64,000 nt of DNA, from contig CP034120.1 of NCBI GenBank assembly GCA_003856375.1, forward strand, positions 1,178,001-1,242,000, read 5' to 3'. Every line of letters starts with the position of its first letter. Position 1 is the stretch's first letter. The stretch is from Glaciecola amylolytica (GTDB lineage: Bacteria > Bacteroidota > Bacteroidia > Flavobacteriales_D > Crocinitomicaceae). The notes below the pieces were generated by a model that ran no database searches, had not been told where the DNA came from, and saw only the letters and a list, made by a program, of their open reading frames with translations. Both the position numbers and the translations under genes were made by a program. Positions 36,807 to 46,097 of the stretch are shown here, one piece after another.

Positions 36807-36834
36807 AAAAAAAAGAGGCTCCTTTTGAGAGCCT
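36807..36834 (-). terminator. Terminator of the SprB-repeat gene
   Basis: On the minus strand GAGGCTC, 6-base loop, GAGCCTC, then eight T. It lies just past the stop at 36862. Confidence 0.9.
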
Positions 36835-36861
36835 CCTTCTAAGCATTAGTAGTTATCAGGG

Positions 36862-39800
36862 TTATTGTTTAACGATTCGTTTCAATACTTTTCCGGATTC
36901 CGTCTCAATGGATAGGAAGTAAACTCCGTCTTCGTAAGATGATAGATCGATTAACTGACCGTTAGTAACTTGATTCACATAATGTGTTTTACCTTGAGCA
37001 TCTGTAATTGTTAATAATGCATCAGCAAAAGTCATTGAAATTGTGACGTTGTTTTCTGTCGGATTCGGGAATACCAGAACTGATTTGGAATCCAAATCTT
37101 CCAGTCCTAAATCGTCTACTAAAACACATGCGGAAGTGTCTCCACAACCAGCTGCGTTTGTAACAAGAACAGCGTAGTTACCGTTGACAGTTGGAGCGAA
37201 CGTTTGACTTGTAGCTCCGGAGATAGCTGTATTTGTCGTACAGTTAATCCATTGATAGCTGTTTCCGCTTGATGCTGTCAAAGTTCCGTTTCCGTTATCT
37301 GTGATAGTCGCAACCGGATTTGCATTAACAACCAGGTTCAATACCAGAATAGAATCACAACCATTGATGTTGGTCAATGTATCTGAGTAAGTTCCTGATG
37401 CAGTATACGTAATTCCTGTTTGACTCCATGTGTAAGTACCACAAACAGTAACGGACTGTGATTGAACAGAACCGCTTAATGTCAGGTTCAATGTAATAAT
37501 AGAATCACATCCAACAGCATTCGGAATGGTATCTTCGTACGAACCGGAAGTGTTATATGTCATTCCGTTTTGAGCCCATGTATAACTGTTTGCACAGCTA
37601 ATCACAGATACAGAACTTCCACTTGGCTGGTTAACAGTCAAAGTAAGTGTAACCGTAGAGTCACATCCGTTGATACTGCTGAATACCTGTGTATAAACAC
37701 CGGATACAGCATGTGATTGACTTCCCCAAACATACGTTCCGCATGAAGTATGAGAATCGTTTTCAGTAATTGCAGCTGGCTCTGTAATGATCACACTTTG
37801 AGTTTCATCACAACCATTTGCATCCGTTACAGTCACTGTATAAGTTCCTGCACTTAGTTCTGTAGCTGTAGCTGCAGTTCCACCTGACGGAGACCATGAG
37901 AAGTCATAAGCAGCTGTTCCACCAGTTACACTGATTGTTGCAGAACCAATACTATCACCATTACAAGTCAGGTTCGTTTGAGCAGAAATAGTTAAAGCTA
38001 AAGTATCTGGCTCAGAAACGATGAAAGTCTGATTATCCTGACAAGCATTCGCATCTGTAACAGTTACAGTGTAAGTTCCTGCAGCTAATCCTGTTGCAGT
38101 TGCAGCAGTTCCGCCTGTAGGAGCCCATGAGTAAGTGTAACCCGGAGTTCCACCTGTAGGAGCAACCGTTGCTGAACCATTCGATCCGTTATGACAAGAA
38201 ACGTTTACAGTAGATCCTGAAGAAGCATCCAAAGCTGTTGGTTCGTCAACAGTAAATGTTCTGGTTGTTTGACATGCATTCGCATCTGTTACGGTTACGG
38301 TATACGTTCCAGCAGCCAATCCTGATGCTGTAGCATTTGTGCCTCCTGATGGAGTCCATGAGTAAGTGTAACCCGGAGTTCCACCTGTAGGAGCAACTGT
38401 CGCAGAACCGTTTGTACCACCGTTACAAGAAACATCTGTTTTCCCACCACCTGTAGCAGCATCTAGAACCGTCGGTTCAGTCAAATTGAATGTTCTGGTT
38501 GTTTGACATGCATTTGCATCTGTTACAGTTACAGTATAAGTTCCAGCTGTTAATCCAGCCGCTGTAGCATTTGTACCTCCAGATGGAGCCCAGGAGTAAG
38601 TGTAAGAAGGCGTTCCACCTGTTGGTGCAACAGTTGCTGTACCATTAGCTCCACCGTTACAAGAAATATTTGTACTTCCACCACCAGTTGCAGCACTTAA
38701 TGCTGTTGGTTGGTCGATAGTAAATGTTCTTTGATCCTGACAAGAATTCGCATCTGTTACAGTCACTGTATAAGTTCCAGCAGTTAATCCTGTAGCTGTT
38801 GCTGCAGTTCCCCCTGATGGTGCCCATGAATAAGTGTAAGAAGGAGTTCCACCAGTTGGAGCAACGGTTGCTGTACCATTTGTACCACCATTACAAGAAA
38901 CATCCGTCTTTCCACCTCCGGTTGCAGTGCTTAAAGCAGCAGCAGGTTCTGTCAGGTTAAATGTTCTTTGAGCTTGACAAGAATTTGCATCCGTTACAGT
39001 CACGGTATAAGTTCCTGCAGCCAATCCAGTCGCTGTAGCATTTGTACCACCTGACGGAGCCCATGAGTAAGAATAACTTGGAGTTCCACCAGTTGGAGCA
39101 ACTGTAGCTGTACCGTTTGCTCCACCGTTACAAGAAATGTTTGTACTTCCACCACCGGTTGCAGCACTTAAAGCAGCAGCAGGCTCAGTTAAGTTAAATG
39201 TTCTTTGAGTCTGACATGTATTCGCATCGGTAACAGTCACAGTATATGTTCCTGCAACAAGTCCGGATGCTGTGGCATTTGTACCACCAGAAGGAGCCCA
39301 GGAGTAAGTGTAAGAAGGCGTTCCACCTGTTGGAGCAACCGTAGCTGTACCATTAGCTCCACCGTTACAAGAAATGTTTGTACTTCCACCACCGGTTGCA
39401 GCACTCAATGCTGTTGGCTGATTAACAGTAAATGTTCTTTGAGTTTGACAAGCATTTGCATCCGTTACAGTCACAGTATAAGTTCCCGCAGCCAATCCAG
39501 TCGCTGAAGCATTTGTACCACCTGATGGAGCCCAGGAATAAGAATAACTTGGAGTTCCACCTGTTGGAGCAACTGTAGCAGTACCATTTGAACCACCATT
39601 ACAAGAAACATCCGTTTTTCCACCACCAGTTGCAGCACTTAAAGCAGCAGCAGGCTGTGTCAGATTAAATGTTCTTTGAGCTTGACAAGAATTTGCATCC
39701 GTTACAGTCACGGTATAAGTTCCTGCAGCCAATCCAGTCGCTGTAGCATTTGTACCACCAGAAGGAGCCCATGAGTAAGAATAGCTTGGAGTTCCACCCG

Positions 39801-42765
39801 TTGGAGCAACTGTAGCAGTACCATTTGCACCACCGTTACAAGAAATGTTTGTACTTCCACCACCAGTTGCAGCACTTAAAGCAGCAGCAGGCTGTGTCAG
39901 GTTAAATGTTCTGGTTGTCTGACATGAGTTAGCATCTGTTACAGTCACAGTATATGTTCCGGCAGTTAATCCTGTCGCTGTAGCATTTGTACCACCAGAA
40001 GGAGCCCAAGAGTAAGAATAGCTTGGAGTTCCACCTGTTGGAGCAACTGTAGCAGTACCATTTGCACCACCATTACAAGAAATGTTTGTACTTCCACCAC
40101 CAGTTGCAGCGCTTAAAGCAGCAGCAGGCTGTGTCAGGTTAAATGTTCTGGTTGTCTGACATGCGTTAGCATCGGTAACAGTCACAGTATAAGTTCCTGC
40201 AGCCAATCCAGTCGCTGTAGCATTTGTACCACCAGAAGGAGCCCAAGAGTAAGTGTAAGAAGGAGTTCCTCCTGTTGGAGCAACCGTAGCTGTACCATTT
40301 GAACCACCATTACAAGAAATATTTGTACTTCCACCGCCCGTTGCTGCACTTAAAGCCGTAGGCTGTGTCAGGTTAAATGTTCTTTGAGCTTGACAAGCAT
40401 TTGCATCGGTAACAGTCACGGTGTAAGTTCCTGCACCCAATCCAGTAGCTGTAGCTGTAGTTCCACCTGATGGAGCCCAGGAATAAGTATAACTAGGGGT
40501 TCCACCTGTTGGAGCAACCGTAGCTGTACCGTTATTTCCACCGTTACAAGAAATGTTTGTACTTCCACCACCGGTTGCAGCACTTAAAGCCGCCGCAGGT
40601 TGTGTCAGGTTAAATGTTCTTTGAGTCTGACATGCGTTAGCATCGGTTACAGTCACTGTGTAAGTTCCCGCTCCCAATCCTGTCGCTGTAGCATTTGTAC
40701 CTCCTGATGGAGCCCAGGAATAAGAATAGCTTGGAGTTCCTCCTGTTGGGGCAACCGTAGCTGTACCATTTGCACCACCGTTACAAGAAATGTTTGTACT
40801 TCCACCACCAGTTGCAGCACTTAAAGCCGCCGCAGGCTGTGTCAGGTTAAATGTTCTTTGAGTCTGACAAGCATTAGCATCGGTTACAGTCACTGTGTAA
40901 GTTCCGGCTGATAATCCTGTCGCTGTAGCATTTGTACCTCCTGATGGAGCCCAGGAGTAAGTGTAAGAAGGAGTTCCTCCAGTTGGAGCAACCGTAGCTG
41001 TACCATTTCCACCACCATTACAAGAAATATTCGTGCTTCCACCACCAGTTGCAGCACTTAGGGCAGCAGCCGGTTGAGTGATGTTAAATGTTCTTTGAGC
41101 CTGACAGTTATTTGCATCTGTTACAGTCACAGTATAAGTTCCTGCTGATAATCCTGTAGCCGTAGCTGCAGTTCCACCTGACGGAGCCCATGAGTAAGTA
41201 TAAGCAGGAGTTCCTCCTGTTGGAGCAACAGTTGCAGTACCATTTCCACCACCTCGACAAGATACGTTTGTACTTCCACCACCAGTTGCAGCACTTATAG
41301 CAGTTGCCGGTTGGTTAATCGTATAGTTTCTTGTAGTCTGACAGTTATTTGCATCTGTTACAGTTACAGTATAAGTTCCAGCTCCTAATCCTGTTGCGGT
41401 TGCAGCAGTACCTCCAGATGGAGCCCATGAATAAGCATAAGCAGGAGTTCCTCCGGTTGGGGCAACAGTTGCAGTACCAGTTATTCCACCGTTACAAGCA
41501 ACATCTGTTTTTCCACCACCTGTAGCTGCATTTAAAGCCGCAGCAGGTTGAGTAATCGTGAAGTTTTTAGTTATCTGACATAAAATGGCATCAGTGATTG
41601 TTACAGTATAAGAACCTGCAGCAAGATTTGTTGCGATTGAACCAGTTCCACCTGAAGGTGACCAACTGTATGTATATGATCCGATTCCTCCGCTTGCTGA
41701 AACAGAAGCAGAACCAGTTGAATTTCCAAAACAAAACACATCGACTTTCGCAGTGGATGCTGTAATGTTTGAAATGGTAAGTGTTGCATTATTGGAGTTG
41801 GTAAAACAGCTTGCAATCCCATTAATTGCTCTACAACGATATTGATAACCACTCATTCCTGCTGTTGCACCCGTAATAGTCAAAACATTGGTAGTTGCAT
41901 TGGAATAAACGCCACCATTTGCGATATCTGTGAATCCGGATCCGGAATTTTCCTGCCATTGAAAAGCAGTTGCACCCGTTGCATTTGAAGTGAAAGTAGT
42001 GTTGTTATTTACACAAATAGTACGATTCGGTGGGTTCGCTGTAATGATAGGTGTTACACAAACTGGAGATTCGAAAAGACGTAAATCGTCAATTGCCATT
42101 TCTTCCGTACCACTGCCATTCGCAAAGCATTTGAATTTCAAATCCAATGTTGTACCGGTACCTGTAATATTAGCTGTGAACTCTGTAAATGTATAAGATG
42201 TGAGTGGAGTTCCGTCACCAATAGAGTCTCCTGTTGTTTCAAGTGCTAAAACCCTACCAGGATTAGTAGCAAATATGCGAACAGCATCTGTCCATGCACC
42301 TCCGTCAATCCGGTAGCTGATAATCATGTAATCAGCTGGATTTGAGGGGTCATTATTTCCGAATTCCCAAGTGGTTGGACTATTATTACATGCAAAAAGC
42401 CCTTTAAATGTCATACCCGTTTTTCCGGAGATATTGATGGAATTCCATGAAATCGTTTGAGCAGCTGAGATCGTATTTTGAGCGCCGCAACCAGGACCTC
42501 TGTCGATATCCTCACAACCCCAGAATTTAGAACCCTGGTAATCCGAATATGAGCCAGTCTGAAGGGCTATCCCAGCTAAATCTGTTCTTTTGAAATAAAT
42601 TGTTGCAGGAGAGTTACAACCGAATTCAGCGATCGATGGAGTCCTTGTTCCTGATGACGGAGCGCCCGCATCTTCGAAATTGTCTGACCAAAACTGCGTC
42701 TGAGCAGAACCGTAAAGTCCTATCAGGAGTAAGGCGACAAGCGTAAGTAATTTTTTTGTTTTCAT
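36862..42765 (-). CDS. Giant SprB-repeat adhesin with T9SS sorting domain (1967 aa)
   Basis: A secreted surface protein. Signal peptide 1 to about 21; a MAM-like sandwich about 22-230 ('QFWSDNFEDAGAPSSGTRTP', 'SISAAQTISWNS' region); an Ig-like domain about 235-330; 17 SprB-like repeats of about 78 residues (about 332-1660); three Cys repeats of 'CGTYVWGSQSHAVSGVYTQ' type (about 1663-1830); a short linker; and a type A T9SS sorting domain ('VLVFPNPTENNVTISM', end 'GKVLKRIVKQ'). SprB is the mobile adhesin of gliding flavobacteria; this protein is far shorter and need not be its orthologue. It has its own terminator. Confidence 0.94.
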   Translation of the reverse strand: MKTKKLLTLVALLLIGLYGSAQTQFWSDNFEDAGAPSSGTRTPSIAEFGCNSPATIYFKRTDLAGIALQTGSYSDYQGSKFWGCEDIDRGPGCGAQNTISAAQTISWNSINISGKTGMTFKGLFACNNSPTTWEFGNNDPSNPADYMIISYRIDGGAWTDAVRIFATNPGRVLALETTGDSIGDGTPLTSYTFTEFTANITGTGTTLDLKFKCFANGSGTEEMAIDDLRLFESPVCVTPIITANPPNRTICVNNNTTFTSNATGATAFQWQENSGSGFTDIANGGVYSNATTNVLTITGATAGMSGYQYRCRAINGIASCFTNSNNATLTISNITASTAKVDVFCFGNSTGSASVSASGGIGSYTYSWSPSGGTGSIATNLAAGSYTVTITDAILCQITKNFTITQPAAALNAATGGGKTDVACNGGITGTATVAPTGGTPAYAYSWAPSGGTAATATGLGAGTYTVTVTDANNCQTTRNYTINQPATAISAATGGGSTNVSCRGGGNGTATVAPTGGTPAYTYSWAPSGGTAATATGLSAGTYTVTVTDANNCQAQRTFNITQPAAALSAATGGGSTNISCNGGGNGTATVAPTGGTPSYTYSWAPSGGTNATATGLSAGTYTVTVTDANACQTQRTFNLTQPAAALSAATGGGSTNISCNGGANGTATVAPTGGTPSYSYSWAPSGGTNATATGLGAGTYTVTVTDANACQTQRTFNLTQPAAALSAATGGGSTNISCNGGNNGTATVAPTGGTPSYTYSWAPSGGTTATATGLGAGTYTVTVTDANACQAQRTFNLTQPTALSAATGGGSTNISCNGGSNGTATVAPTGGTPSYTYSWAPSGGTNATATGLAAGTYTVTVTDANACQTTRTFNLTQPAAALSAATGGGSTNISCNGGANGTATVAPTGGTPSYSYSWAPSGGTNATATGLTAGTYTVTVTDANSCQTTRTFNLTQPAAALSAATGGGSTNISCNGGANGTATVAPTGGTPSYSYSWAPSGGTNATATGLAAGTYTVTVTDANSCQAQRTFNLTQPAAALSAATGGGKTDVSCNGGSNGTATVAPTGGTPSYSYSWAPSGGTNASATGLAAGTYTVTVTDANACQTQRTFTVNQPTALSAATGGGSTNISCNGGANGTATVAPTGGTPSYTYSWAPSGGTNATASGLVAGTYTVTVTDANTCQTQRTFNLTEPAAALSAATGGGSTNISCNGGANGTATVAPTGGTPSYSYSWAPSGGTNATATGLAAGTYTVTVTDANSCQAQRTFNLTEPAAALSTATGGGKTDVSCNGGTNGTATVAPTGGTPSYTYSWAPSGGTAATATGLTAGTYTVTVTDANSCQDQRTFTIDQPTALSAATGGGSTNISCNGGANGTATVAPTGGTPSYTYSWAPSGGTNATAAGLTAGTYTVTVTDANACQTTRTFNLTEPTVLDAATGGGKTDVSCNGGTNGSATVAPTGGTPGYTYSWTPSGGTNATASGLAAGTYTVTVTDANACQTTRTFTVDEPTALDASSGSTVNVSCHNGSNGSATVAPTGGTPGYTYSWAPTGGTAATATGLAAGTYTVTVTDANACQDNQTFIVSEPDTLALTISAQTNLTCNGDSIGSATISVTGGTAAYDFSWSPSGGTAATATELSAGTYTVTVTDANGCDETQSVIITEPAAITENDSHTSCGTYVWGSQSHAVSGVYTQVFSSINGCDSTVTLTLTVNQPSGSSVSVISCANSYTWAQNGMTYNTSGSYEDTIPNAVGCDSIITLNLTLSGSVQSQSVTVCGTYTWSQTGITYTASGTYSDTLTNINGCDSILVLNLVVNANPVATITDNGNGTLTASSGNSYQWINCTTNTAISGATSQTFAPTVNGNYAVLVTNAAGCGDTSACVLVDDLGLEDLDSKSVLVFPNPTENNVTISMTFADALLTITDAQGKTHYVNQVTNGQLIDLSSYEDGVYFLSIETESGKVLKRIVKQ
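37783..41770 (-). repeat. 17 tandem SprB-like coding repeats of about 234-237 bp
   Basis: Each unit encodes 'SCNGGANGTATVAPTGGTPS', 'YSWAPSGGTNATATGL' and 'AGTYTVTVTDANACQ' with small changes. Units 4 to 14 are nearly identical; units 1, 16 and 17 diverge. Two linker classes, 'ATGGGSTNISC' and 'ATGGGKTDVSC', alternate irregularly. Confidence 0.93.
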
Positions 42766-42829: not shown

Positions 42830-43762
42830 TTACGAGTTAAAAAGCAGACCTGCGATGGGTTTCTTAGCGGCAAATCGCTCTACCGTTTGAATCCCGAAAT
42901 CTCCTGCTATGATTTGAACATTGATAATTTGACCATCCAGACAAGAAACAGCCATTTCTCCTTCTGGTGTCAGTTGTAACACTTTTCCGGGAGTATCAGC
43001 GTGCTGCTCTTCGGATAATGAAGCGGACAGGATTTTTACATTTCGTCCTTGTAATAAAGTATCTGCTCCCTGATTCCATGGATTGCAAGCATTGATTAAT
43101 GAAATAATCTCATCTGCCGGCATTCTTTTCCATTGAATGAAAGTGTCGGTGACCTCCGGCTTTTCAAAATAACGGGCCTGATTTTCATCTTGCTCCGTTC
43201 TTGGAATTTGAGACCCGAATTGCAGCATGTGTGCAACGTTTAATGCAACCATTGCAGTACGCTCGCTTAATTTAATCGCCAATTCACCATACGTTTCGTT
43301 GGGTGAAACCGGCAGTTTTTCTTTCAGGATGATTGCACCTTCATCAAATTCCTTGTTCATAAAATGAACGCTGATAGCCGTTTCTTTTTCCTGATAGCGT
43401 AATACCTCAAAAAGTGGCATTGGTCCACGGTACTCAGGAAGCGGTCCCGGATGAAAATTGATGAAGCGCTCTTCTCCGTAAGAGAGAATATCTTCCGAAA
43501 GAAGAAATGGAAAGGAAATACTGAAAATATAATCGGGTTGAAGTTCTTCGATCCAACCTTTTAAGTCTGTCAAACTTTCTTTTGTCGGAAATGATTGGTA
43601 GGGAAGTCCGCTGTTTTGCGTTTCTCTTTCAATCACTTTAAGTGCTTCATTTTCACCTTTTCCAATTCCGACACCACACAGAAATTTTTCAAGCTCCAGA
43701 ATCTGAAGAGCCGGAAAAGCGAATTGACCGCCGCAAAGAACCAGTATGCGTTTTTGTTCCAT
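42830..43762 (-). CDS. Formyltransferase, Fmt/PurN-like fold
   Basis: A 310-residue protein of the methionyl-tRNA/folate formyltransferase fold. The catalytic triad Asn102, His104 and Asp140 is in place ('RFINFHPGPLPEYRGPMPLF' and 'NKEFDEGAI'), followed by an Fmt-C-like domain ('NQGADTLLQGRNVKILSASL'). It differs from housekeeping Fmt in the N-terminal nucleotide-like motif 'VLCGGQFAFPALQIL' and in neighbours, so it probably formylates a sugar, amine or peptide rather than Met-tRNA. It starts in the stop codon of the binding-protein gene (TGATG). 10-formyl-THF is the likely donor by family. Confidence 0.85.
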   Translation of the reverse strand: MEQKRILVLCGGQFAFPALQILELEKFLCGVGIGKGENEALKVIERETQNSGLPYQSFPTKESLTDLKGWIEELQPDYIFSISFPFLLSEDILSYGEERFINFHPGPLPEYRGPMPLFEVLRYQEKETAISVHFMNKEFDEGAIILKEKLPVSPNETYGELAIKLSERTAMVALNVAHMLQFGSQIPRTEQDENQARYFEKPEVTDTFIQWKRMPADEIISLINACNPWNQGADTLLQGRNVKILSASLSEEQHADTPGKVLQLTPEGEMAVSCLDGQIINVQIIAGDFGIQTVERFAAKKPIAGLLFNS

Positions 43763-44916
43763 CAGATGCAGGTATAACTGTTATACCATCCCGAAATCGC
43801 GTTTTCGGTAGAAATGGTAATGAATTGTTCAAAATCGGAATGGGAATCTTCCACACTTTTTTCGATTGTTAAAGAGCAGGTTCCGTTTTCATCTTTTTCA
43901 ATACTTGTTTCAAACAAAGGAGCCATGGTATGTCTCGTAGGAGCGTGGAAATAAACATTTCCTCTTGGCCCGTTAAATGAAAAATCCATCATGGAGTCCG
44001 AAACAAGCTGCACATTATTTTTATGTTCAAGCATCAGATCGCTTGCATGAACTGCCAGGATTGCGCCTTCCCAACCAAGCAGGGAAAACAGGTTCGCAGT
44101 GCGGCCGTTGGATTCAATGGTATCGATAAATACTTTGTTCTCCGGGTTGTCCAATTGATATGACCAGGCTGCAATTCCTTTAATGAGCCCGCCGGGATGA
44201 ACGGCATCTTTCAACATGGTTTCTTCCTGTGCAAACGGAGGAAGATAAATCGGTAAATGATTTTCACCAAAAACGCCTTTTAAGCCTTCAAAGTACCATT
44301 GGACATAGTCACCACTGAAAATACTCAACAATGCACCTTCCGGATATTTTTCTACATGCTCTTTTAAAGGCTGCATGGAAAAATCGTCTTTGTTGTAACC
44401 GGTAGCATGGTTGAAGGTGATATTTCCTCCAGCTGAAATAAATCCGCTGCAAAGTCCCCAGGTTTGAAGATAACCACCGTCATAATAACCGGTAATCATT
44501 CCTCCTTGCGAAAAACCATCGTTGACAGCCCGTTTTGCTGTTAACCATGATCCGAACGAGTTGTGTAAGGAATGATAAATGATATTGGGAGTTTCCGGCC
44601 ATTCGTGCGGAACGTTTGCTCCGGCATCCAGTACGATCAACAAGCGATTTGCAGCTTGAAACAATGGTTTCAATACCTGAGCCATCCGATGACCGATATA
44701 AGCCAAAACAACGGTTGCATTTTCATGCATGATTAATTCTTCCGCTGCTTTATAACACAGTTGTTTGTCGGTCCCGAAACCGATATTTTCCGTTACCAAT
44801 CGAATATTATCGCGTTCAATATGACGAACGGATGAACGGGCACCCTCGAAAATGTCAAAACTCAAGCCTGTATAATAGGTTGAGCGCGGTAAAAGTAGAC
44901 CAATTGTTTGCATCAT
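43762..44916 (-). CDS. Type I periplasmic-binding-fold protein without signal peptide
   Basis: A protein of about 384 residues with the Leu/Ile/Val- and amide/urea-binding fold (Peripla_BP type I): 'QTIGLLLPRSTYYTGLSFDI' (start), 'TVVLAYIGHRMAQVLKPLFQ', 'VNDGFSQGGMITGYYDGGYL', and 'PPFAQEETMLKDAVHPGGLI'. No signal peptide or lipobox is present, so it should stay in the cytoplasm as an AmiC-like sensor or a scaffold. The frame extends to 44940, but that region lies inside a hairpin; ATG 44916 or 44913 is chosen. It shares one base with the formyltransferase gene. Confidence 0.78.
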   Translation of the reverse strand: MMQTIGLLLPRSTYYTGLSFDIFEGARSSVRHIERDNIRLVTENIGFGTDKQLCYKAAEELIMHENATVVLAYIGHRMAQVLKPLFQAANRLLIVLDAGANVPHEWPETPNIIYHSLHNSFGSWLTAKRAVNDGFSQGGMITGYYDGGYLQTWGLCSGFISAGGNITFNHATGYNKDDFSMQPLKEHVEKYPEGALLSIFSGDYVQWYFEGLKGVFGENHLPIYLPPFAQEETMLKDAVHPGGLIKGIAAWSYQLDNPENKVFIDTIESNGRTANLFSLLGWEGAILAVHASDLMLEHKNNVQLVSDSMMDFSFNGPRGNVYFHAPTRHTMAPLFETSIEKDENGTCSLTIEKSVEDSHSDFEQFITISTENAISGWYNSYTCI

Positions 44917-44927
44917 ATAATCAAAAG

Positions 44928-44949
44928 GGGAGTGCATCAATGCACTCCC
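44928..44949 (-). other. Intercistronic hairpin in the tail-collar operon
   Basis: GGGAGTGCAT / ATGCACTCCC, a perfect 10-bp stem with a 2-base centre, followed on the minus strand by CTTTTG. It stands between the second collar gene stop and the binding-protein start, where it could weaken downstream transcription or protect the collar mRNA end. Confidence 0.7.
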
Positions 44950-44957
44950 GTATTAGT

Positions 44958-45512
44958 TTAATTTCGACTTGGAAAAATACCTTCCACAGCAATAGAAAAA
45001 TTCAGGCATAGGAAAGGATTCAAAATATTGAATGGCATACCGCTTCCGGCAGCATCCGTAGTTCCTGAAACCTGCGTTCCTCCTGTGAAAATATTGTTTG
45101 TCGCCGTATCGGCATAAGCTGGAGAACCTGTTGTTGCAGGAAATGTTCCATCTGGAGATTGTTCACCGGCAGTTGCACTGGATGCTTTCACCTGCACATG
45201 CATATTCACCAATGTGTGAATGTGCTGAGGCAGATTGTCCGTTTTCAAAGACATGTTTGTATTTCCGGATGCTTGTCCCATCGTGTAGTCTGGCAAGCCC
45301 GGCCCCTGGCCTTGTCCTACCGGCATGCGTCCTTGCAGATCCGGAAGTGCAAAAGTCGTTTGGCCATTCCCACCGTAAGTTGTCCCGATCAATGAGAACA
45401 AAGCTGTGTATGCAGCAATAGACAGGATCTGTCCCTGACAGGTCATGTAGCCCAAAGGAGGAAAGTTAAACCCTAAAAGTTTTACTTCTCCGATAAATGG
45501 TTCTGTAGACAT
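44958..45512 (-). CDS. Phage-tail-collar (microcystin-dependent/Mdp-like) protein, copy 2
   Basis: A 184-residue phage tail collar domain protein (PF07484 type): 'FIGEVKLLGFNFPPLGYMTC', 'GTTYGGNGQTTFALPDLQGR', 'QHIHTL' and the C-terminal 'NILNPFLCLNFSIAVEGIFP' with final 'PSRN'. The collar module forms trimeric beta structures at phage tail tips, but free-standing genes like this occur in many bacteria without phage genes. No signal peptide or sorting domain is present. It has the same length as its neighbour at 45543, without gaps, and about three quarters of residues agree by eye. Second in the operon, 30 bases after copy 1. Confidence 0.93.
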   Translation of the reverse strand: MSTEPFIGEVKLLGFNFPPLGYMTCQGQILSIAAYTALFSLIGTTYGGNGQTTFALPDLQGRMPVGQGQGPGLPDYTMGQASGNTNMSLKTDNLPQHIHTLVNMHVQVKASSATAGEQSPDGTFPATTGSPAYADTATNNIFTGGTQVSGTTDAAGSGMPFNILNPFLCLNFSIAVEGIFPSRN

Positions 45513-45542
45513 AATAAAATCGTGTTAGAGTAAGTAAAACAA

Positions 45543-46097
45543 TTAATTACGACTTGGGAAGATTCCCTGAAGCGCAATCGAATAGTTCATACACAGGTAA
45601 GGATTCAAAATGCTGAATGCTTGTCCTCCTCCGGTAATGTCTGTTGTTCCGCTTACTACAGTACCTCCTGTGAAAATGCTGTTTGTAGCCGTGTCCGCAT
45701 AAGCTGGAGTACCTGTTGTTGCAGGAAATGTTCCATCCGGTGATTGCTCACCTGCAGTTGCGCTTGATGCTTTTACCTGAACGCGTACACTGTTCAAAGT
45801 GTGAACGTGCGGAGGAATGTTACTTGTCAGAAGTGTTGTCGTTGTTGTACCTGCCAATTCTCCCATGGAGTAATAAGGTAAAGCAGGTCCCTGACCTTGA
45901 CCGATTGGTACACGTCCCTGTAAATCAGGAAGTGCGAATGTAGTAGTTCCGTTTCCACCGTAAGTTGTACCCAACAATGAAAACAAAGCTGTGTTTTGCG
46001 CAATTGATAGAATTTGTCCTTGGCAAGTTGCGTAGCCTTTTGGAGCGAAGTTGAATCCAAATAGTTTTACTTCGCCGATAAATGGTTCAGTAGACAT
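45543..46097 (-). CDS. Phage-tail-collar (Mdp-like) protein, copy 1
   Basis: A 184-residue paralogue of the 44958 product. The segments 'GTTYGGNGTTTFALPDLQGR' and 'ASSATAGEQSPDGTFPATTG' are almost unchanged, while the middle ('LAGTTTTTLLTSNIPPHVHT') and the end ('GGGQAFSILNPYLCMNYSIA') differ. It is the first gene of the four-gene block, with a likely -7 box TATCTTTG about 130 bases upstream. The conserved ends and variable middle suggest a structural pair that could assemble together as a heterotrimer; that is inference. Confidence 0.93.
   Translation of the reverse strand: MSTEPFIGEVKLFGFNFAPKGYATCQGQILSIAQNTALFSLLGTTYGGNGTTTFALPDLQGRVPIGQGQGPALPYYSMGELAGTTTTTLLTSNIPPHVHTLNSVRVQVKASSATAGEQSPDGTFPATTGTPAYADTATNSIFTGGTVVSGTTDITGGGQAFSILNPYLCMNYSIALQGIFPSRN

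Follow-up and report, generated by a model that had tools for sequence, protein, structure and literature searches.

A possible non-phage surface adhesion operon combining phage collar-like proteins, a binding-fold protein, a formyltransferase and a giant secreted protein

The window analysed here, a stretch of 64,000 nucleotides from Glaciecola amylolytica (contig CP034120.1, positions 1,178,001 to 1,242,000), carries on its minus strand a block of genes transcribed in the order collar protein 1, collar protein 2, a binding-fold protein (hereafter BP), a formyltransferase (hereafter FT) and a secreted protein of 1967 amino acids (aa) (Table 1). We tentatively propose that this block is a five-gene operon and that it represents a module, widespread and not of phage type, for building a structure of adhesion at the cell surface, a reading that we consider possible but still short of probable. 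The proposal starts from the linkage of these genes in other genomes, a terminator-like hairpin between the collar and BP genes, the catalytic residues of the FT, a conserved tail of the BP, and the confinement of accessory genes to loci whose collar proteins lack signal peptides, all of which are observed directly.

Gene organization and conservation of the module

The initial annotation had described two collar paralogues of the same length, a type I binding-fold protein without a signal peptide and an Fmt-fold enzyme with an N-H-D triad, located on one strand with gaps of 30, 41 and -1 bases. The coordinates of the open reading frames (ORFs) agree with this arrangement, and Pfam searches recovered Collar in both paralogues (E 2.1e-27 and 2.5e-25), Peripla_BP_6 in the BP (E 8.5e-11), and Formyl_trans_N (E 3.4e-19) and Formyl_trans_C (E 1.1e-13) in the FT. 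These four genes are real, but the block had been drawn too short, as a fifth member, the giant secreted protein located 64 bp downstream, had been overlooked. The intergenic gaps in transcription order are 30, 41-44, -1 and 64 bp, where 41 is the distance to the BP ATG at 44916; the ORF tool picks a TTG at 44940 as the BP start, which sits inside the hairpin between collar 2 and BP, and relatives favour an ATG at 44913 or 44916. By eye, no signal peptide was recognised at the start of either collar, BP or FT in the window. Pairwise dN/dS values of the collars, BP and FT against two relatives, using unsaturated dS only, ranged from 0.04 to 0.17; they are rough because dS exceeded 1 in most pairs, and at this resolution they indicate purifying selection on the four genes. 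Promoter-like sites were not above expectation (12 found vs 19.4 in shuffled sequences), and therefore no promoter is claimed.

The BP query, run on 199 genomes drawn from the order of the host, matched nine of them: seven of the nine same-genus genomes listed, counting its own, and two from a different genus of the family. The remaining two same-genus genomes (2.9 Mb) likewise gave no collar at E<=1e-10. GTDB genomes were also scanned for BP, an approach that picks up close relatives only, and nine loci were retrieved, eight of them from Flavobacterium. The order collar (one to three genes), BP, FT and secreted protein is kept in 6/6 other Fluviicola and 8/8 Flavobacterium loci found. The neighbourhood of the families in related genomes, which had been set beforehand as a test, is therefore present in all 14 further loci of these two genera. 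Two same-family loci (L028, L029) display collar, BP and secreted protein without FT. A search of E. coli DNA gave no match, which adds little.

A broader survey of 395 Bacteroidota genomes (cut-offs: BP profile A1 E<=1e-15, collars E<=1e-10, FT E<=1e-40) gave BP in 23, collars in 99 and the FT profile in 25 genomes. A collar gene was located at most two genes from BP in all 22 non-self BP loci. At E<=1e-78, FT was found in 21 genomes, with a collar at most two genes away in 20 of them, the window's own included; the exception (G450) has an FT without a collar on a 6.5-kb contig. Four weaker FT matches (4e-43 to 7e-41) were set aside as probably other formyltransferases; L199, the only one read, is surrounded by apparent sugar-acid genes. 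Of the 99 genomes with collars, 78 contributed a total of 82 loci to the analysis, some of them cut by contig ends, and a collar was confirmed by profile in 79 loci. These 79 loci contain BP and FT (13), BP (10), FT (6), GNAT and DUF6916 (7), BP, GNAT and DUF6916 (1), or DUF6916 (2). FT (19/79) and GNAT (8/79) are mutually exclusive, sharing 0/79 loci. All FT, BP and GNAT-profile matches lie within three genes of a collar and none is found among 370 genes four to nine away, an absence that is partly expected because collar-adjacent sequences were among those used to build the GNAT, DUF6916, FT and BP profiles, which favour collar-linked forms.

On plasmids, the collar query matched 65 records, 16 of which were read, chosen for the diversity of their organisms (three Deinococcota, ten Pseudomonadota, one Bacillota and two Bacteroidota; L202, L204 and L205 are unannotated there). 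A GNAT-type acetyltransferase was annotated or detected in 11/16 of them, FT in 1/16 (Spirosoma) and a BP-like protein in 3/16 (Deinococcus), and in all 16 an ORF at least some 900 aa long is located near the collar. Modules related to the window block are thus present in Deinococcota, Pseudomonadota and Bacillota, where FT is replaced by a GNAT acetyltransferase.

Collar proteins and the giant secreted protein

For the collars, profile and fold searches alike led to the cyanophage A-1(L) fibre (8kec) and T4 gp12 (1ocy), with the gp12 head matched at E 7.5e-6 by profile and at E 1.4e-3 by Foldseek; PHROG tail families match as well. The histidines of the HxH motif (H97 and H99) are invariant in 51 collars from four phyla; in gp12, this pair is the metal site. 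The collar domain and the HxH pair suggest that these proteins adopt a gp12-related fold, which would assemble as trimers. Concerning their location, some homologous collars carry Sec- or Tat-type signals, and YP_165745.1 of Ruegeria pomeroyi, which has this Pfam domain too, is described as detected in the exoproteome (PMC4949626). Therefore, the collars probably end up outside the cell.

The giant secreted protein is the steadiest partner of the collars in Bacteroidota. A same-strand protein of at least 300 aa is found within four genes downstream in 82 of 95 collar loci (L016 and L053 being the same record). The signal-like N-terminus and the Por_Secre_tail domain of the window protein make it a candidate cargo of type IX secretion. 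Using our own profile, a type IX C-terminal domain was recognised in 40/53 complete downstream proteins vs 37/332 other complete ORFs of at least 300 aa in the same loci, and Pfam confirmed a domain of this type in all six downstream proteins tested. Domains were checked in two of the large plasmid proteins, giving an autotransporter domain in L131 and a weak cadherin match in L125. In five loci (L019, L020, L021, L027 and L054), the block is followed by two secreted proteins with the same 'FWSD-FED'-type N-terminal domain, and in the Flavobacterium loci among them a small Tat-like gene separates the two; the second protein looks as if the adhesin gene had been duplicated.

A hairpin between the collar and BP genes

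A gap was considered to contain a hairpin when it folded better than shuffled sequence (z<-2). Excluding the window, such a hairpin was found in 27/34 gaps between the last collar and BP vs 0/71 collar-collar gaps. Among the other gap classes, it was found in 1/28 gaps from BP or FT to the large protein, 6/15 from collar to the large protein, 4/11 from collar to FT, GNAT or DUF6916 (without BP), and 23/130 other same-strand gaps sampled (of 391). The stem sequences vary between genomes. Chance was rejected as an explanation of the hairpin by these gap-class controls. Partial termination at this position would yield more collar than BP and FT.

The binding-fold protein and the formyltransferase

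The BP is modelled well (pLDDT 91), and its closest folds are the aromatic-acid binding proteins of Rhodopseudomonas (4evq, 4ey3), with AmiC (1pea) ninth. AmiC acts in the cytoplasm and, like the window BP, is a signal-less type I binding protein. In contrast to AmiC and the aromatic-acid binders, the BP ends in a conserved tail: considering 43 homologues (the window and one duplicate record included), a Trp is present in the last 14 residues of 42 and a Cys within the last four residues of 38. This tail is a signature of the BP family. Beside the BP, neither of the partners expected from AmiC or importers was recognised: no permease or ATPase gene was found by Pfam among the ten window neighbours, and no AmiR/ANTAR-type antiterminator was recognised by eye among the listed neighbours, where no ANTAR profile search was made. 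The BP was rejected as the substrate-binding protein of an ABC importer, considering its missing signal peptide and the missing permease and ATPase neighbours. The BP homologues of Deinococcus and L148 carry Tat-type signals next to collars without signal, and therefore BP is not cytoplasmic everywhere.

The N-H-D triad of the FT (N102, H104 and D140) is invariant in 28 FT sequences, the window included. Together with the Formyl_trans_N and Formyl_trans_C domains, it places the FT in the N10-formyl-tetrahydrofolate-dependent formyltransferase superfamily. It shares both domains and the triad with Fmt and the formyltransferase domain of ArnA, but differs from them in forming a separate clade that is almost always beside collar genes. 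Its scores lie below the curated cut-offs for Fmt (128.2 vs 201.5 bits, TIGR00460) and for ArnA (107 of 777 bits), and its 310 aa leave out the fused C-terminal dehydrogenase. For these scores, its identification as a free-standing Fmt or ArnA was rejected. The FT profile also matches 14 loci in viral contigs, with identities reaching 40%.

Signal peptides and accessory genes

Signals were called by a crude hydrophobicity rule instead of a trained predictor, and BP, FT or GNAT within 4 kb was counted as an accessory gene. Most collars are signal-less; Sec-like N-termini are found, for instance, in L118, L163 and L208, and Tat-like ones in L106, L120, L167 and L172. In the raw table of 109 loci, accessory genes were present/absent in 4/15 loci with a signal and in 60/30 loci without (Fisher p 5e-4). 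Four loci (L059, L170, L202 and L203) were moved by hand to the no-signal class because their hydrophobic stretch is read only from an upstream TTG, an ATG being located at or just before the collar motif, and L120, whose signal was missed by the script, was added to the signal loci. The 16 signal loci were kept after the same start-codon check, although in L137 and L172 an ATG coincides with the motif as well, and L207 was counted without accessory, its BP-like protein having scored weakly. In the corrected table, an accessory gene is present in 0/16 signal loci vs 64/93 signal-less loci (64 with, 29 without; p 1e-7), and both p-values ignore relatedness, the loci not being independent. Thus, after start-codon correction, BP, FT and GNAT are confined to loci with signal-less collars. 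Both states are present inside the genus groups g65 and g67.

Tat-like motifs showed no clear enrichment near collars (20/611 genes one to three away vs 14/591 farther), and therefore only individual Tat cases are used. In L059, L067, L121, L169 and L170, collars are adjoined by proteins of some 170-330 aa that begin with a Tat-like N-terminus and have no known function, and similar ones are located 3' of the secreted-protein gene in Flavobacterium (L017, L019-L021 and L054). DUF6916 (PF21880) accompanies collars in L109-L111, L121, L123, L124, L146, L148, L169 and L170; within the Bacteroidota survey, GNAT is also present in eight of the ten DUF6916 loci, and the L111 copy has a Tat-like signal.

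Comparison with known systems

Among systems described outside phages, RhiB of the rhiABC(D) operon of Rhizobium leguminosarum is also a collar-domain protein in a non-phage operon (PMC13133039, PMC4149787); it was not identified among the collar-matching plasmid records listed. In the parts of these papers available to us, its partners are rhiA and rhiC, under quorum-sensing control, and BP, FT or a giant protein are unmentioned, which differs from the window block (PMC13133039, PMC4149787). RhiB is the only named relative for which genetics exist. The Ruegeria pomeroyi protein mentioned above, a bacterial protein detected outside the cell, shares the collar Pfam domain (PMC4949626). The T4 gp12 head and the cyanophage A-1(L) fibre share the collar domain with the window proteins; in contrast to both, these have no shaft and no phage genes, and their partners are the BP, an acyltransferase and the secreted protein of giant size. 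The initial annotation knew of no description of such a set, and we found none in the open-access literature of PubMed Central, a search with paywalled papers and preprints outside its scope.

Proposed mechanism and alternative explanations

In the adhesion structure that we propose, the collars would fold into trimeric, metal-binding and receptor-binding heads similar to those of T4 gp12, without the phage shaft, and the paralogues may mix within one trimer. The hairpin would stop most transcripts past the collar genes, so that collars would exceed BP, FT and the giant protein. Inside the cell, FT (elsewhere, a GNAT acetyltransferase) would N-acylate one defined amine, which most likely belongs to the signal-less collars or to a ligand carried by them; this would be one step in a maturation route replacing the signal peptide. 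The BP, docked via its conserved C-terminal tail, would bind either the assembled collars or a small ligand of aromatic or amide type; BP and/or the N-acyltransferase would thus supply the maturation step of signal-less collars. Once exported, the collars would serve in attachment as heads and the giant type IX-secreted protein as the stalk. The complete scheme, a surface system of several phyla in which attenuator-boosted trimeric heads are N-acylated by a dedicated formyl- or acetyltransferase and escorted by BP in the cytoplasm, instead of having a signal peptide, and are then exported folded and placed on a giant secreted stalk, is unlikely to be right in all its parts. The cytoplasmic sensing and formylation of a collar component or ligand, as put forward in the initial annotation, was not borne out: BP and FT are separable (both in 13, BP without FT or GNAT in 10 and FT without BP in 6 of the 79 loci), GNAT replaces FT elsewhere, and BP is of the Tat type in Deinococcus and L148.

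Several observations weigh against the adhesion structure. None of BP, FT, GNAT and DUF6916 was recognised by profile in 40 of the 79 Bacteroidota collar loci, and the maturation step cannot be general because 29 signal-less loci have no accessory gene. The window collars have neither a signal nor a known exporter, and a Tat-signalled BP in Deinococcus conflicts with a purely cytoplasmic maturation role. The collar model is of moderate quality (pLDDT 77, pTM 0.49 for a monomer prediction) and superposes poorly on 1ocy and 8kec (TM-score about 0.4, rmsd about 20-27 A), which would not be surprising for a single chain taken from an interwoven trimer. The FT profile has ArnA as its best match, with Fmt almost equal, and the collar domain is common in viral contigs, where a profile of 51 collars confirmed 180 of 220 pattern-matched stretches and 79 loci were kept. 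Finally, RhiA, the operon partner of RhiB, is described as highly expressed, cytoplasmic and not detected in the culture supernatant (PMC2275737), and therefore a simple secreted complex is disfavoured in the rhi system.

The best match to ArnA is what would be expected if FT formylated a nucleotide-linked amino sugar destined to decorate the giant protein or an outer-membrane glycan, with lectin-like collars and a BP binding a sugar or aromatic precursor, and the sugar-acid surroundings of L199 point in the same direction. Nevertheless, Fmt scores nearly as high, GNATs occupy the same place, and no aminotransferase or other nucleotide-sugar gene was recognised beside the block in 38 neighbourhoods of relatives' loci, reading by eye the first 45-70 residues of each ORF, so that we regard this as an unlikely alternative, if one to be taken seriously. 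A sensory operon is slightly less plausible. Here, BP would be an AmiC-like cytoplasmic sensor of an aromatic or amide ligand acylated by FT or GNAT, and would govern read-through of the hairpin. The closest folds of BP, aromatic-acid binders with AmiC in ninth place, agree with this idea, as do the hairpin just 5' of BP in 27/34 loci and the missing ABC transporter genes among the ten window neighbours. In contrast, an AmiR-like antiterminator was not recognised in the block, by eye and with no ANTAR search made; the BPs of Deinococcus and L148 have Tat-type signals, and the hairpin is also found without BP in 4/11 gaps between collar and FT, GNAT or DUF6916.

That BP, FT and GNAT are each optional could be taken to mean that the genes are neighbours by chance, or merely co-regulated without a joint function. 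This seems quite improbable considering the order kept in 14/14 further Fluviicola and Flavobacterium loci and the lack of BP, FT or GNAT matches four to nine genes from a collar, which the collar-linked profiles favour in part. Even more remote, and already strongly disfavoured, is a remnant of a prophage, tailocin or contractile injection system, an idea prompted by the collar being a phage tail-fibre domain, by the PHROG tail families and by the collar relatives in viral contigs; collar matches were obtained in 62 phage records, where identity reaches 38%. However, no phage structural genes were detected by Pfam among the ten window neighbours or recognised by eye in 38 neighbourhoods of relatives' loci, and BP was found neither in 50,697 phage records nor, using a pattern-based scan, in viral contigs. 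The purifying selection and the cellular partners in four phyla also argue against it, and such a remnant was rejected on the window neighbours and these BP searches. The initial annotation was thus right about the absence of phage genes by the block and about a set conserved outside phages, beside which no phage structural genes were recognised in the 38 neighbourhoods of relatives' loci, but its 'injection-like' structure found no support. The one viral contig read (L208, from IMG/VR) looks like a fragment of a Bacteroidota chromosome, where three collars with Sec-like signals are followed by a secreted protein.

Features of the block and neighbouring genes

Table 1. Positions of the block genes and hairpins in the window
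Feature	Position	Strand	Description
Collar protein 1	45543-46097	-	184 aa; free-standing collar/gp12-head-like protein; HxH motif; C-terminus GIFPSRN; Pfam Collar
Collar protein 2	44958-45512	-	184 aa; 141/184 positions identical to collar 1; Pfam Collar
Terminator-like hairpin, collar 2/BP gap	44928-44949	-	9 pairs, U-rich tail; proposed attenuator
BP	43762 to 44913 or 44916 (ATG)	-	type I solute-binding fold, without signal peptide; C-terminal tail SGWYNSYTCI
FT	42830-43762	-	Fmt/ArnA-type formyltransferase, 310 aa; N102-H104-D140; Formyl_trans_N and Formyl_trans_C; dedicated clade
Giant secreted protein	36862-42765	-	1967 aa; N-terminal signal-like segment, 17 SprB stretches, Por_Secre_tail
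Terminator-like hairpin 3' of the secreted-protein gene	36810-36840	-	end of the proposed operon

Divergent from many Flavobacterium collar operons (L016-L017, L019-L022 and L053-L057), we found genes for a conserved protein of about 110-130 aa and a membrane protein of about 213 aa, together with proteins that, by eye, are histidine-kinase-like (about 260 aa) and response-regulator-like (about 225 aa). This group is partly present also in L018, L112 and L122, and L130 has an annotated kinase and regulator on the same strand; none is located beside the window block. Aspartyl/asparaginyl beta-hydroxylase-type proteins were detected by profile near collars in L072, L073, L074, L148 and L164, with PF05118 confirmed in L074. 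In a Deinococcus plasmid (L207, 7735-10329), lasso-peptide biosynthesis B2 and PqqD-family proteins are annotated just after the collar module.

Significance

Such genes carry the annotation 'tail fiber protein' and are easily mistaken for prophage debris. Here, they belong to a module conserved in four phyla, together with an acyltransferase and a secreted giant protein, and collar domains are present in 99 of the 395 Bacteroidota genomes. The exclusivity between signal peptides and accessory genes makes the idea of a maturation step directly testable. If the proposal is true, the module would represent an unrecognised adhesion system in which N-formylation (or acetylation) is linked to a structure of the cell surface, and perhaps also a way of exporting folded proteins that lack a signal peptide.

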